From contig NZ_WRXM01000004.1 in the NCBI RefSeq assembly GCF_010119205.1, forward strand, positions 1-64,000: a DNA stretch of 64,000 nt. The letters run 5' to 3'. Every line of letters begins with the position of its first letter. Within the stretch, counting starts at the first letter, position 1. The notes under the pieces are model-generated. The model did no database searches. It was given only the letters and a program-made list of their open reading frames with translations, and was not told the DNA's origin. Origin of the DNA: Haloarcula limicola (GTDB lineage: Archaea > Halobacteriota > Halobacteria > Halobacteriales > Haloarculaceae). Positions 3,200 to 64,000 of the stretch are shown here, piece after piece. A program made the position numbers and the translations under genes.

Positions 3200-4168
3200 A
3201 TGGCACCCGATATACCTGGGCTTCACCACGTCACGGCCATCGCCGGCGATCCGCAGCGAAACGCCGACTTCTACGTCGGGACGCTGGGGCTCCGGTTCGT
3301 CAAGAAGACGGTCAACCACGACGACACCGGCACGTATCACTTCTACTTCGGCGACGGCGAGGGGACGCCCGGCACGAACATCACGTTCTTCCCGTGGACG
3401 AGCGAGGGGCGAGAGGGCCGCTTCGGCGCGGGCCAGACGCGGGACACCGCGTATCTCATCCCCGAGGACTCGGTCGGGTACTGGACCGAGCGCCTCGACG
3501 CAGACGGTGTCGCGGTCGAGCGGACCGAGCGGTTCGACGAGACGGTCCTGCAGTTCGAGGACCCGGACGGCATCGGCATCGAACTGATCGCGGCGGACGC
3601 CGAAACGGACGCGGTGCCGTGGACCGATAGTCCGGTGCCCGCGGAACACCAGCTACGGGGGTTTTACAGCGTCACGCTCGCCGTTCCCTCGGTCGAGCCG
3701 ACTGCGGAGCTGCTCACCGAGATGTTCGGCTACGAGCACGAGGCGACCGAGGGCGATCGTCACCGCTACCGGAGCGCGGCCGGCGGGTTCGGGTCGGTGG
3801 TCGATCTCGTCGAGACCGACGACGAGTACGGGCAAATGGGCGTCGGCACGGTTCATCACGTCGCGTTCAGAGCCGACGACGTCGAGGCGCTGGAGGCGTT
3901 CCGCGACGAATACCTCGAACGGGGGTTGCGCCCGAGCGAGGTCATCGACCGGGCGTACTTCCACGCGCTGTACGCCCGCGAGCCGAACGGCGTCCTCTTC
4001 GAGATCTCGACGATGGAGCCGGGATTCACCGCCGACGAGTCCGTCGACGAACTCGGTACCTCGCTCGCGCTCCCGGAGTGGCTGGAAGACGAGCGGAAGA
4101 CCATCGAACGGCAGCTCCCCGATTTCGACGGGCCGACGATTCCGGACGGGAGCGAGTCGACGGAATGA
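3200..4168 (+). CDS. Ring-cleaving dioxygenase, VOC superfamily (MhqO-like)
   Basis: A 322-residue two-module vicinal oxygen chelate protein. Module 1 starts GLHHVTAIAGD (His9/10) and module 2 has TVHHVAFRADD (His219/220) and NGVLFEIST (Glu268), the expected metal ligands; FVKKTVNHDD and FHALYAREPNG are typical of the MhqO/LinE-type extradiol dioxygenases that open hydroquinone-like rings. It is likely a cytosolic iron or manganese enzyme handling quinols. The following reductase starts inside its stop codon (ATGA), so they are translationally coupled. The substrate is inferred only from family resemblance. Confidence 0.88.
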   Translation: MAPDIPGLHHVTAIAGDPQRNADFYVGTLGLRFVKKTVNHDDTGTYHFYFGDGEGTPGTNITFFPWTSEGREGRFGAGQTRDTAYLIPEDSVGYWTERLDADGVAVERTERFDETVLQFEDPDGIGIELIAADAETDAVPWTDSPVPAEHQLRGFYSVTLAVPSVEPTAELLTEMFGYEHEATEGDRHRYRSAAGGFGSVVDLVETDDEYGQMGVGTVHHVAFRADDVEALEAFRDEYLERGLRPSEVIDRAYFHALYAREPNGVLFEISTMEPGFTADESVDELGTSLALPEWLEDERKTIERQLPDFDGPTIPDGSESTE

Positions 4169-5385
4169 CCGACGCAGCCGCGGACGACCGCGCCGCGCCC
4201 TTCCGCTTCGAGTACGACCCGGCCGCGCTCCGCTACGGGCCGAACTGCGTCGCCGACCTCGGTTCGGAGGTGGCCGCACACGACGGAAGCCGGGCGCTCG
4301 TCGTCACCGGGTCGACCGTCGGCGAGACGGCGGCGGTGATGGACCCCATCGAGGAAGGACTCGGCGACCGGCTCGCCGACGTGTTCGCCGGGACGACGCC
4401 GGCGAAGCGACTCGGGACCGCCATCGACGCGCTGGCGGCGTTTCGGGAGAGCGACGCGGACGCGATCGTCAGCGTCGGCGGCGGCAGTAGCCTCGACGTG
4501 GCGAAGGTGCTCGCGGTGCTGGTAGCGACCGAGCGCGATCCCGAGGCGGTCGGGGCGGAACTCGTCGAAACCGGGACTCTCTCGGTTCCCGATACCGAGC
4601 TCCCGCCCATCGTCGCCGTCCCGACGACGCTCGCCGGGGCGGACCTCACGATGGTCGCGGGCGTCACCGCCGACCCCGGGACCTGTCCCGTCGAGTCGGC
4701 GGTGAGCGGCGGTATCTCCGACCCGAAGTTGATGCCCGCTGCGGTGTGTTACGACCCGGAACTGGTCGCGACGACCCCTCGAAGCGTCCTTGCCGGGTCG
4801 GCGATGAACGGCTTCGACAAGGGTATCGAGACGCTGTACGCCCGCAACGCCACGCCGGTCACCGACGCGACGGCGATGCGCGGACTCTCCCTGCTACGGG
4901 AGGGGCTGCTCGCGTTCGGTGACGGCGAGGAGACGGACTGGGTGTACCAGACGCTGACTCGCGGGCTGGTGCTCGTCCAGTACGGCATCTCCCGGGCCGA
5001 GGGGACGACGCTCTCGCTGATCCATTCCTTCGGCCACGGCCTCACGCGCACGTACGAAATGCAACAGGGGGCCGCCCACGCCGTCGTCGCCCCGCACGCG
5101 CTCGACTACCTCTTCGACCGCGTCGACGGCAGGCGGGACCTCCTCGCGGACGCGTTCGGCACGGCCGACACAGAGGACCCGGCCGCGGCCGTCGTCGAAG
5201 CGGTCGCCAACGTCGCCGCGGCGCTTTCCCTCCCGACGCGCCTCCGCGACGTTGACGGCCCGTCCCCCGAGGAGTTCCCGGCGGTCGCCGAGGCCGTCCT
5301 GTCGGACTCGTTCATGGCCAACGCCCCGCCGGGGTTGGAACCGACGCGCGAGGATATCGAATCGGTACTGGACGCCGCGTGGTAG
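4165..5385 (+). CDS. Iron-containing alcohol dehydrogenase fold reductase (metal ligands mostly lost)
   Basis: A 406-residue Fe-ADH/maleylacetate-reductase family protein. The chosen ATG at 4165 overlaps the upstream stop; an earlier in-frame Met would run deep into the dioxygenase gene. The NAD(P) loop GGGSSLDVAK (105-114) is intact. In contrast the four residues that bind iron in this family appear changed: the DxxxH pair reads N215/K219 (AMNGFDKGIE) and the PHG His reads Gln301 (EMQQG), leaving only His287 in the HSFGH motif. It may therefore work without metal, as some maleylacetate reductases are reported to do, which would fit its coupling to a ring-cleaving dioxygenase. Cofactor and substrate are inferences. 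Confidence 0.85.
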   Translation: MTDAAADDRAAPFRFEYDPAALRYGPNCVADLGSEVAAHDGSRALVVTGSTVGETAAVMDPIEEGLGDRLADVFAGTTPAKRLGTAIDALAAFRESDADAIVSVGGGSSLDVAKVLAVLVATERDPEAVGAELVETGTLSVPDTELPPIVAVPTTLAGADLTMVAGVTADPGTCPVESAVSGGISDPKLMPAAVCYDPELVATTPRSVLAGSAMNGFDKGIETLYARNATPVTDATAMRGLSLLREGLLAFGDGEETDWVYQTLTRGLVLVQYGISRAEGTTLSLIHSFGHGLTRTYEMQQGAAHAVVAPHALDYLFDRVDGRRDLLADAFGTADTEDPAAAVVEAVANVAAALSLPTRLRDVDGPSPEEFPAVAEAVLSDSFMANAPPGLEPTREDIESVLDAAW

Positions 5386-60100: not shown

Positions 60101-60283
60101 TAACGCGGAAAGCAGCGTCGTTTGGCCTTATTAGGCCCCTTTCAATTCGATAGGTTTCAGCAGTACTGCATACAAGGCGCGGATCTATCGGAAATACCCA
60201 GAACGGTTAGTATTTTGTATTGAAGACCGGTCGGCTGAAATAGCCGATATAGTTACCTCATCTCACAAACACAGAGGGCACGA

Positions 60284-60742
60284 ATGGGAATATTTCGAAG
60301 TGACAAGTGGGAATGTTATCGTTGCGGGGAGACTTATCGGTCAAATCCATCCGAATGTTCTGAGTGTGGTTATACTGTCCTCACCCAATATCACGAAGGC
60401 GAGGGGAAGCCGTCGAAGAGTTGGAAAACGAAACCTGTATCGGACCAAGAATCACAGAAGGTTGTCTGGTACTGTGATAAGTGCAAGCAGAAACACATAG
60501 ACGATCCAAAACAATGCAAAGTCTGTGGTACAGAGGAGTTCAAAAAGGTTGGCGGGAAATACGTTGAACCCGATGAAAACCACCAATACACACGCCCTGA
60601 CGATGATGTCGAGACGATCTCAAATGTCCGTGAGGCCACGAGTTCTCCAGTCCAGCCGGGGTCCGATGATAGCAATCTCGGCCTCTATGCTGGAGTCCTA
60701 CTGCTCGTGATTTTCGTCGCACTCATTCTTTACCTGCTCTAG
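60284..60742 (+). CDS. Tandem zinc-ribbon protein with C-terminal membrane helix
   Basis: A 152-residue protein. Two zinc ribbons have the same Cys spacing: Cys11, 14, 25, 28 and Cys64, 67, 78, 81 (C-x2-C-x10-C-x2-C). A Ser/Asp-rich linker (about 100-130) leads to a single C-terminal helix NLGLYAGVLLLVIFVALILYLL with nothing after it, so the zinc part is cytosolic and tail-anchored. Codon use is AT-rich. A paralogue with the same spacing lies at the right edge of the window. Function is unknown; a scaffolding or sensing role with the CAP protein is conjecture. Confidence 0.8.
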   Translation: MGIFRSDKWECYRCGETYRSNPSECSECGYTVLTQYHEGEGKPSKSWKTKPVSDQESQKVVWYCDKCKQKHIDDPKQCKVCGTEEFKKVGGKYVEPDENHQYTRPDDDVETISNVREATSSPVQPGSDDSNLGLYAGVLLLVIFVALILYLL

Positions 60743-60926
60743 CTTTCATGGAAACGACGTGTTTCGGCAGGAAGGGATAGGTTCGTTACTATGTGCGATT
60801 ATTCCTCCCACTAGTACAATCTCTTCAACGAACGGTCGTCATATATCGTTCTCTACTGACACTACACGTTCCTTCGAGTCAGTCATAATATTGATATCAA
60901 TTCGGCGTACATATTCGGAATAATGG

Positions 60927-62261
60927 ATGTCTAAATGTAATATCTGTGGGGAAGATAGCGGACTCTCCAATAATTGCACGTACTGTGAAGGAACATTCTG
61001 TTCTGAGCACGTTCTTCCTGAAAGGCACGATTGTCCTGCTCTTCGTTCAGCAGAGACCTTGGGCCCTGAATTTCGCCAAGCAAAGCGGGATGTTGTTCTT
61101 GGGGAAGACGATGATAGCCAATTAAGGAATTCATCTGAACAACCGAAGAAACCAGATACCGACGATTTTGGAATCAAAGATGAGGAGAGTGAAGTTCGAG
61201 AACCAACGCAACCAAAGACCGCTCCAAACTCCCCTTCGAGAGAAGCAGAATACGAGAGCAGTCCTGATGTAGCTACCGACGGGAGTATTGTAGGGAGAGA
61301 AGCAGCGGAATCTACATCCCAAACAGTAAACAATCTTGCTACGCCAATTCAGATACTCTTTGCTGGTGCTACCGCAGGTCCACGATACAGCGGCGATTGT
61401 CCATACTGTGGGAAGTGGGTCTCACGACGGCGAACAGATCGATTCACAACCTGCCACCGCTGTGGCTGGAAGTCAGGGCTACCACTACTCCGTATCGCCA
61501 CCCATTGGCCCAACTGGCTGCTGTGGAGACGACGCGGAATTCGGTGGACGAAGCGGCTGTTAATCGCCTCACTGATCCTCGCACTTGTCGCTGGTCTCGT
61601 GGGGTCAACTGTTGGGACAGGTATTGAACCAGTAGATAGGGTGTCGACGGAGATCGCTAAACAGGCTGGTGTCTACCAGCCTCTCTCGGCATTTGTTGCT
61701 AACCTGTCTACGAATGAATCAGCGAATGTATCGACGGCATCTAGTAGCTCCACTAAAGCCACGTACACTACAGCCGATCCCGAAGACCAGACGACGAATA
61801 GTGGTTCCAATGAAATTGACATTTCGGCCGTTGAGATGGCGATTCATGAGGAAGTCAACCAGCGACGGACCGCAAACGGGCTTGGTCAATTAGAGTATCG
61901 CTCTGACCTTGTAGAGGTCGCTCGCTATCATTCGAAGGATATGGCCAGTAAGGGATACTTCTCACACGACTCACCGAATGGTGAATCCCTCGGAGACCGC
62001 TATCAACGATTCGGTATCAACTGTGCTGGTGGCGAAAACATCGCCTACACCTATTGGGAAGAGAATATTCAATCGGAAGGTAGGCTGCTATACTATGACT
62101 CAGAACAGGATGTGGCGATTGGACTCGTTAATCAGTGGATGAATTCGACCGGTCATCGAGAGAACATCCTCAGAGAGCGATTTCAGTCAGAGGGTATTGG
62201 AATCTCCGTTGCGGAGGTCGACGGAGCAACTCGAATATACGCTACGCAGAATTTCTGTTGA
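60927..62261 (+). CDS. AN1 zinc finger / zinc ribbon / TM / CAP-domain protein
   Basis: A 444-residue protein. An AN1 finger fits perfectly: C4, C7, C17, C20, C25, H28, H34, C36. A disordered Ser/Glu stretch (40-150) leads to a second zinc ribbon (C158, C161, C176, C179), a basic stretch, one membrane helix (about 209-230), a Ser/Thr-rich linker and a C-terminal CAP/SCP domain (about 300-444) with H335, GGEN E370 and MNSTGH H410. AN1 fingers bind ubiquitin-like modifiers or proteins in the cytosol, and CAP domains act outside cells; joining them through a membrane is unusual. Codon use is AT-rich. Confidence 0.88.
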   Translation: MSKCNICGEDSGLSNNCTYCEGTFCSEHVLPERHDCPALRSAETLGPEFRQAKRDVVLGEDDDSQLRNSSEQPKKPDTDDFGIKDEESEVREPTQPKTAPNSPSREAEYESSPDVATDGSIVGREAAESTSQTVNNLATPIQILFAGATAGPRYSGDCPYCGKWVSRRRTDRFTTCHRCGWKSGLPLLRIATHWPNWLLWRRRGIRWTKRLLIASLILALVAGLVGSTVGTGIEPVDRVSTEIAKQAGVYQPLSAFVANLSTNESANVSTASSSSTKATYTTADPEDQTTNSGSNEIDISAVEMAIHEEVNQRRTANGLGQLEYRSDLVEVARYHSKDMASKGYFSHDSPNGESLGDRYQRFGINCAGGENIAYTYWEENIQSEGRLLYYDSEQDVAIGLVNQWMNSTGHRENILRERFQSEGIGISVAEVDGATRIYATQNFC

Positions 62262-62422
62262 TCGGCATTTAGTAGTTGGATATCACTACGACAATACCTT
62301 CAATAGGCATTGAAATCTCCCTCAATCGGTGACAAAGGTCAATAGTCGGGTTAAATACAGCCCTCTATATCTCGCACGCGGATTTTATCCGGTGCTGAGG
62401 GGTGCAACAGAGACAGTCGTTT

Positions 62423-62614
62423 CTACACGAGCACCAGCGCGATGCCGAACGTGAGAACCAGGCCGACGAGCATGACGGCGAATCCCTGTCCGACCTGTCC
62501 CATCGTAAACGGGCTCTGTGGCGACGTGGAGCGCAGCGGGGCCTGTTTGTCCGGTAGCTCGACGTGTTCGGGGTCGTAGTTCGGACGGTTTTCCTCGGCG
62601 TGTTCGTCTGCCAT
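62423..62614 (-). CDS. DUF7550-like small membrane protein
   Basis: A 63-residue protein: an acidic cytosolic N-terminal part (MADEHAEENRPNYDPEHVELP), then PFTMGQVGQGFAVMLVGLVLTFGIALVLV, one C-terminal transmembrane helix. The pattern matches the haloarchaeal DUF7550 family, whose function is unknown. It returns to the GC-rich codon use of the main chromosome. Confidence 0.8.
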   Translation of the reverse strand: MADEHAEENRPNYDPEHVELPDKQAPLRSTSPQSPFTMGQVGQGFAVMLVGLVLTFGIALVLV

Positions 62615-63638: not shown

Positions 63639-64000
63639 ATGGAATGGCGGTGTAAGTGGTGCGGGAAGCCACACGAGGAGAACGACCCTCCCTGCGACAA
63701 CTGCGGCCACGGCACCTTCGAGCGGGCGGTCGAACAGGTCAGCCACGAAGTGGTCGAGGGCGGGCCGGTGTGGGTGTGTCAGGACTGCGGCCGCGAGCAT
63801 CAGAAGCACTCGCCGCCCTGCAGTCGCTGCGGCGGCTCCGACTTCGAGCGCCGCATCGGCCCGCCCGAGACCGACCCGCTGGACGAGATCGGCACCGGCT
63901 GGCTGGACGTCCTCGAAGCGAAGTACGTCCTCGGCTACGCCGCCGTCGCCGTCGTGCTCGGGGTCGTCCTCCTCGGCCTCCTCGGCGTCGTCTCCCTGCC
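63639..64000 (+). CDS. Tandem zinc-ribbon membrane protein (partial, runs off the window)
   Basis: The first 121 residues: two zinc ribbons with Cys5, 8, 19, 22 and Cys47, 50, 61, 64 in the same C-x2-C-x10-C-x2-C spacing as the protein at 60284, then a helix beginning near 97 (AKYVLGYAAVAVVLGVVLLGLLGVVSL) still open at the window edge. Codon use is GC-rich, unlike its paralogue in the island. The remainder is unseen; an extracytosolic C-terminal domain (possibly CAP, as in the 60927 protein) would fit the arrangement but is conjecture. Confidence 0.8.
   Translation, partial: MEWRCKWCGKPHEENDPPCDNCGHGTFERAVEQVSHEVVEGGPVWVCQDCGREHQKHSPPCSRCGGSDFERRIGPPETDPLDEIGTGWLDVLEAKYVLGYAAVAVVLGVVLLGLLGVVSL

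Follow-up and report, generated by a model that had tools for sequence, protein, structure and literature searches.

A gene for a single-pass membrane protein of 444 residues, in which an AN1 zinc finger, a zinc ribbon and one transmembrane (TM) helix are followed by a CAP domain, was identified in Haloarcula limicola. The AN1-TM-CAP order appears to be a real and recurrent archaeal design of known domains, and the design itself appears to be undescribed. The gene lies on a horizontally acquired segment of the window, which is the whole stretch of DNA that was analysed (64,000 nucleotides). The features of the locus are as follows.

60101-62423, no strand: acquired AT-rich segment between purL (end 60100) and the small TM gene ahead of hisF
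60284-60742, plus strand: tail-anchored protein of 152 residues with two zinc ribbons and a C-terminal TM helix (open reading frame; sub-cut-off DZR and zinc-ribbon Pfam matches; relatives)
60927-62261, plus strand: AN1/zinc ribbon/TM/CAP protein of 444 residues (open reading frame; Pfam; full-length homologues)
60936-61043, plus strand: AN1 finger, residues 4-39 (Pfam PF01428, E 1.2e-8; ligands C4, C7, C17, C20, C25, H28, H34 and C36)
61257-61289, plus strand: cytosolic motif SSPDVATDGSI, residues 111-121 (common to 23 finger proteins; motif-only search)
61398-61463, plus strand: zinc ribbon, residues 158-179 (CPYC...CHRC; sequence)
61557-61613, plus strand: TM helix, residues 211-229 (hydropathy, positive-inside count, model)
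61815-62258, plus strand: extracytoplasmic CAP domain, residues 297-444 (Pfam CAP; model; structure match 4ifa)
62423-62614, minus strand: small TM gene that precedes hisF (open reading frame)
63639-64000, plus strand, continuing to 64481 in contig C4 (L006 8640-9482): resident gene for a double zinc ribbon, a TM helix and a degenerate CAP domain (280-residue open reading frame)

Domain organization and topology of the AN1-CAP protein

The AN1 finger scores 35.4 bits with zf-AN1 (PF01428; Pfam cut-off 27.9), and its C6H2 pattern, CxxC-x9-12-CxxC-x4-CxxH-x5-HxC, is complete with all eight ligands. Seven of the eight ligands are invariant among 12 homologues, and the position of H28 is occupied by cysteine in two. 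The AlphaFold pLDDT over the finger is 50-78, and structure matches span residues 295-444 only. The zinc ribbon at residues 158-179 is also present in the proteins of loci L009, L011, L012 and L013 and is missing from the other AN1-CAP members.

The CAP domain (PF00188, residues 308-443) was matched with an E of 1.2e-18 and 68.5 bits (Pfam cut-off 21.1), and the AlphaFold model has a pLDDT of 96-99 across it, the linkers being disordered. The top PDB match is 4ifa, an SCP-domain protein of Bacillus anthracis (Z 20.5, rmsd 1.7, 124 residues, 37% identity), followed by BB0689, SAV1118, GAPR-1 and many more. Residues H335, H347, E370 and H410 (His/His/Glu/His) are invariant in the 12 homologues and are presumably the polar cavity-lining residues of the bacterial CAP type. 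The NCBIfam YkwD family (TIGR02909) gave an E of 5e-24 but only 84.6 bits, below its cut-off of 171. The CAP domain is of the bacterial YkwD/SCP type with the conserved polar residues intact. The bacterial proteins of this type named here (4ifa, TIGR02909) have the CAP fold in common with the Haloarcula protein but are without an AN1 finger or cytosolic zinc domains.

The AlphaFold model contains a helix at residues 197-227 (pLDDT ~81-91), which overlaps the TM helix called by hydropathy. Six lysine or arginine residues are found in the 15 residues before the TM helix and one in the 15 after it, and these residues are richer before the helix than after it in all 12 homologues. Because of this bias around a single TM helix, an N-in/C-out topology is predicted. 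Exactly two cysteines lie on the outer side in each of the 12 homologues, and N-X-S/T sequons number 35 outside, against 22.7 expected from shuffled sequences, and 12 inside, against 17.6. The predicted topology of a single-pass membrane protein, with the AN1 finger, an acidic linker and the zinc ribbon in the cytosol and the CAP domain outside, is thus well supported. An earlier note on this DNA, made from the sequence alone, had proposed the same order of domains and the same sidedness, and both stand.

Horizontal acquisition of the segment

The segment of ~2.3 kb has a GC content of ~0.50, whereas that of the surrounding chromosome is 0.67. The third-position GC (GC3) is 0.51 in the gene of the 152-residue protein and 0.46 in the AN1-CAP gene, compared with 0.93 in purL and hisF. 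At the nucleotide level, the sequence is homologous to that of congeners up to 60100 and again from ~62424 onward. The 20 congener purL-hisF intervals examined all lack the two genes and retain purL, hisF and the small TM gene; the interval is only 365 bp in genome G327. In the closest relative (G392, hisF 99% identical), the site is occupied by genes for a FIST-like and a histidine-kinase-like protein, both named by eye. The segment was therefore horizontally acquired, as is seen from its foreign GC3 and its absence from the site in close relatives, and the AT-rich codon use that the earlier note had taken as a sign of transfer is borne out by the synteny comparison that it proposed.

The purL-hisF interval varies across the genus, and many congeners hold the pair of FIST-like and histidine-kinase-like genes (e.g., L145 7200-10100). 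At the borders of 60101-62423, neither an integrase among the open reading frames, nor attachment or end repeats of note, nor a tRNA was found, and an integrated mobile element with attachment-site or tRNA borders was rejected for this reason.

A two-gene unit matching window positions 60163-62289 at 84-88% is carried on a plasmid-like 64-kb contig of genome G348, beside an Orc1/Cdc6 gene. The AN1-CAP gene of this unit is interrupted by an insertion of ~1.07 kb that contains HTH-rich transposase-like open reading frames, with TA repeated at the junction, and it also has a frame change. Between the focal genome and G348, dN/dS is 0.17 for the 152-residue zinc-ribbon gene. For the AN1-CAP gene it is 0.36 in the 5' part, the value for the 3' part being unreliable because of the frameshift in the G348 copy. 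For the AN1-CAP genes of G191 and G286, dN/dS is 0.19. These values (0.17-0.36) indicate purifying selection, which supports both open reading frames as real genes.

Many AN1-CAP genes are poorer in GC than their flanks (0.47 vs 0.61, 0.50 vs 0.62 and 0.53 vs 0.66) and others are not. The AN1-CAP gene is an accessory gene that has moved between haloarchaea. Its accessory distribution and its low GC in several hosts would also suit a surface protein of a mobile element, in which a displayed CAP domain controls cell contacts or incoming elements (surface exclusion, mating control) and the fingers only anchor or regulate it. The G348 contig with its Orc1/Cdc6 gene argues in the same direction, as does the gene next to the AN1-CAP gene in G191 and G286, whose product matches a TrwB-type coupling protein (E 5e-6), but this transfer-gene neighbour is limited to one genus and other AN1-CAP loci adjoin chromosomal genes. 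PrgA, a protein of an enterococcal conjugation plasmid, has a role in surface exclusion. Its CAP domain, displayed at the surface and encoded on a mobile element, matches the focal model with a Z of 10.7, yet CAP matches are numerous and at least one (4ifa) ranks above it, and PrgA itself differs from the Haloarcula protein in having no AN1 finger, in its chain of 744 residues (6z9l) and in its Gram-positive host. One contig of the IMG/VR collection (L245) carries a CAP gene among phage structural genes, but the phage, plasmid and IMG/VR collections gave CAP-only matches and no AN1-CAP protein. A viral or plasmid origin was rejected on the same result, and a role as a mobile-element surface protein is considered unlikely.

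The zinc-ribbon neighbour

The 152-residue protein has four CxxC pairs and ends in a TM helix, in agreement with its earlier description as a tail-anchored double zinc-ribbon protein. The zinc ribbons are less certain by profile, since all zinc-ribbon Pfam matches are sub-threshold, including that of DZR (19.7 bits; cut-off 27.3). Relatives occur in G348 (two copies), G301 (with a stop codon inside) and G136. A solitary paralogue of 128 residues, also with a double zinc ribbon and a TM helix (GC 0.45), is encoded elsewhere in the focal genome (C4:196640-197026; L086 6640-7026), and further solitary relatives are found in G348 (C32) and G136. The pairing of a zinc-ribbon gene with an AN1-CAP gene was seen only in the focal genome and G348, most AN1-CAP genes being without such a neighbour. 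An obligate two-gene module was rejected on this distribution. The 152-residue protein probably travelled with the AN1-CAP gene and is not an obligate partner of it; the link between the two is weak.

The earlier note had also offered defence as a function of the pair. Both genes lie on an AT-rich accessory island, and in G301 cas-like genes, identified by eye, are found in the vicinity of CAP lipoprotein genes and of a zinc-ribbon pseudogene. PADLOC, however, has no family for the AN1-CAP protein and returned only noise for the 152-residue protein (E 0.07-0.5), and most copies have no adjoining defence gene. In view of this and of the lack of consistent defence neighbours, a defence module is highly improbable and was rejected.

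A recurrent family across archaea

Among 392 Halobacteriales genomes, CAP matches were found in 229, and the architecture was read from the open reading frames of part of these matches. Intact AN1-TM-CAP proteins are encoded in at least 15 of the 392 genomes (G000, G177, G191, G286, G262, G363, G382, G364, G296, G237, G066, G136, G142, G124 and G031). The broken copies of G348 (interrupted) and G162 (fragments only) stand outside this count. The members include proteins of Halobacteria archaeon HArc-gm2 (L165) and Halorubrum sp. CSM-61 (L184).

The design extends beyond the haloarchaea. In Methanoregula sp. UBA471 (L179), a gene for an AN1-TM protein of 107 residues (4001-4324) is followed after 23 bp by a TM-CAP gene (4348-5136), and five other genomes of the same genus code have the AN1-TM gene with no CAP gene within 1.5 kb. 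A fused AN1-TM-CAP protein of 348 residues was found in G447, whose genus code (g127) is that of the genomes in which the Methanoregula AN1-TM protein has its closest homologues. An AN1-multiTM-CAP protein was found in G441, and an AN1-TM part is joined to a divergent CAP domain in L372 and L373 (G509 and G528). The absence of any described AN1-CAP coupling, which the earlier note had asserted, holds in so far as no paper on an external CAP domain linked to an AN1 finger in the cytosol was found in the open-access literature; searches there on archaeal AN1, AN1-rhomboid, Haloferax AN1, archaeal CAP-AN1 and PrgA CAP also gave no relevant paper. The implied uniqueness of the protein is not supported, because the architecture recurs in archaea, in haloarchaea and in methanogens.

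The same N-terminal AN1 finger also precedes other membrane-associated domains. It stands ahead of a transglutaminase-like domain in L378, which has a TM helix (PF04473, E 4.9e-49), and ahead of a rhomboid domain in L377 (PF01694, E 2.7e-33). Archaeal AN1-rhomboid proteins (e.g., L377 and L007 3852-4808) resemble the focal protein in having an N-terminal AN1 finger followed by a membrane part, but this part is a multi-TM rhomboid protease and there is no external CAP domain. Some relatives of the AN1-CAP proteins lack the AN1 finger and have zinc ribbons or nothing in its place. The AN1 label is scattered in the CAP tree, where at least four gains or losses are forced by the starred branches, which indicates that finger and CAP domain were joined or separated repeatedly.

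Several other architectures were observed in the survey. Further archaeal AN1-TM-transglutaminase-like proteins are encoded in L381 and L371. The multi-TM CAP gene of the IMG/VR contig mentioned above (L245 592-2028), which lies amid phage-like structural genes, resembles the membrane part of an AN1-multiTM-CAP protein (L376). A woesearchaeotal protein of 821 residues (L190 2003-4468) consists of a DnaJ domain, a Cys-rich region, a TM helix and a CAP domain, and so combines a cytosolic chaperone-type domain with an external CAP domain. This DnaJ-Zn-finger-TM-CAP protein has no Pfam AN1 match and was not counted as a member.

A cytosolic motif shared by zinc-finger membrane proteins

The linker of the focal protein includes YESSPDVATDGSI. 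A motif-only search of the 392 genomes with a Cys-free peptide query of 27 residues gave 25 places. In 23 of these, the motif SSPDVxxDGS[IV] lies behind an AN1 finger or a zinc ribbon and in most cases ahead of a TM helix; the remaining two are an AN1-CAP remnant and a protein without a finger. The finger pattern is present in 22 of 422 flanking open reading frames (5%), and the binomial test of the association used 22 of 24 matches, before the last case was read. The frequency of fingers in the motif proteins, set against this background, indicates that the motif marks a class of zinc-finger membrane proteins and that it is likely to be a docking site. No description of this motif was found in the open-access literature on archaeal AN1 or CAP proteins.

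In haloarchaeal AN1 or zinc-ribbon proteins, the motif often has GTxPxPDY/F upstream. The motif proteins are encoded in L005 (1330-1746), L397-L400 and L407-L422. Most have one C-terminal TM helix, and those of L407, L411, L412, L414 and L420 have none.

Possible function of the AN1-CAP protein

AN1 fingers are best known as eukaryotic proteasome and p97 partners, and archaea possess ATPases homologous to those of the eukaryotic proteasomal and p97 type. On this analogy, a role of the AN1 finger in docking a cytosolic partner, combined with an action of the CAP domain on the envelope, is tentatively preferred here. The AN1 finger and the SSPDVxxDGSI motif would together dock the partner, which by analogy would most likely be an AAA ATPase of protein quality control, of the PAN or Cdc48 type. 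Cytosolic proteolysis could in this way be coupled to the activity at the surface, or the turnover, of the CAP domain or of its envelope target. The occurrence of the same finger before rhomboid and transglutaminase-like domains agrees with a cytosolic adaptor that can be reused by proteins that modify the envelope.

In eukaryotes, ZFAND5 places its AN1 finger on Rpt5, an ATPase of the proteasome, and ZFAND2B/AIRAPL, which is associated with the ER membrane, works with p97 (PMC11799193). Cuz1 binds the proteasome in a zinc-dependent manner, and the AIRAP/Cuz1 subfamily has the signature LDFLP after the first cysteine pair (PMC5035049). These three proteins share the AN1 finger with the focal protein, and AIRAPL also acts at a membrane (PMC11799193, PMC5035049). 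The eukaryotic AN1 proteins differ in their C-terminal CAAX membrane attachment and in having neither a TM helix nor an external domain, and the ubiquitin-linked domains of the ZFAND/Cuz1 group are absent from the focal protein.

Several results count against docking. The FLP segment of the LDFLP signature is absent from the focal finger, which has GLSNNC there (methanogen relatives have LPF), and the finger is dispensable in some relatives. No partner of any archaeal AN1 protein was found in the open-access literature. No conserved neighbour pointing to a pathway was found at the AN1-CAP loci. Nor, to our knowledge, do most prokaryotic CAP domains have an assigned molecular activity.

Transmembrane signalling and surface adhesion, both suggested in the earlier note, are candidate functions. 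A single TM helix that separates an inner zinc finger from an outer part resembling a sensor, together with the presence of AN1-rhomboid proteins in the same genome, would be compatible with transmembrane signalling. Ligand binding or processing at the CAP domain would then release or alter the fingers, which would in turn act on transcription or translation in the manner of zinc-finger membrane proteins of the anti-sigma type. Signalling of this kind is improbable, given that AN1 fingers are mainly protein-binding and that no regulator gene is consistently adjacent.

The preferred docking role may be part of a more general and so far undescribed archaeal class of membrane proteins, in which the AN1 finger and SSPDVxxDGS[IV] recruit proteasomal or Cdc48-type ATPases to the inner face of the membrane and swappable CAP, transglutaminase-like and rhomboid parts work on the envelope. 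Such a class is an unlikely extension. If it exists, it would be an archaeal counterpart of the membrane-linked quality control of the AIRAPL type, and a membrane-mounted AN1 class would offer a simple system for the original role of AN1 fingers and for the coupling of cytosolic quality control to the envelope.

The resident gene after hisF

The product of the gene after hisF matches the AN1-CAP family profile with a probability of 98.4%. It has no Pfam CAP match and has lost the CAP polar residues, while the zinc ribbons and the TM helix are kept. A zinc-finger-TM-CAP design was thus already resident beside the insertion site. The gene extends beyond the end of the window and for this reason was missed in the earlier note.

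The retention of zinc ribbons and a TM helix in this paralogue would suit a constitutive envelope protein, the CAP domain of which binds lipid, glycan or metal at the surface while the fingers are no more than anchors, structural or regulatory, and have no specific partner. Haloarchaeal CAP domains follow varied N-termini (lipoprotein, TM, zinc ribbon and AN1), which is also in keeping with such a function. Against it stand the strong conservation of the AN1 ligands and the SPDV motif across proteins with no more than 33-48% identity to the focal protein, and the repeated combination of the AN1 finger with different outer domains. These suggest a specific internal partner, and a constitutive envelope protein without one is regarded as doubtful.

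The gene after hisF is retained near hisF in nearly all congeners examined, and proteins similar to its product occur across the order.
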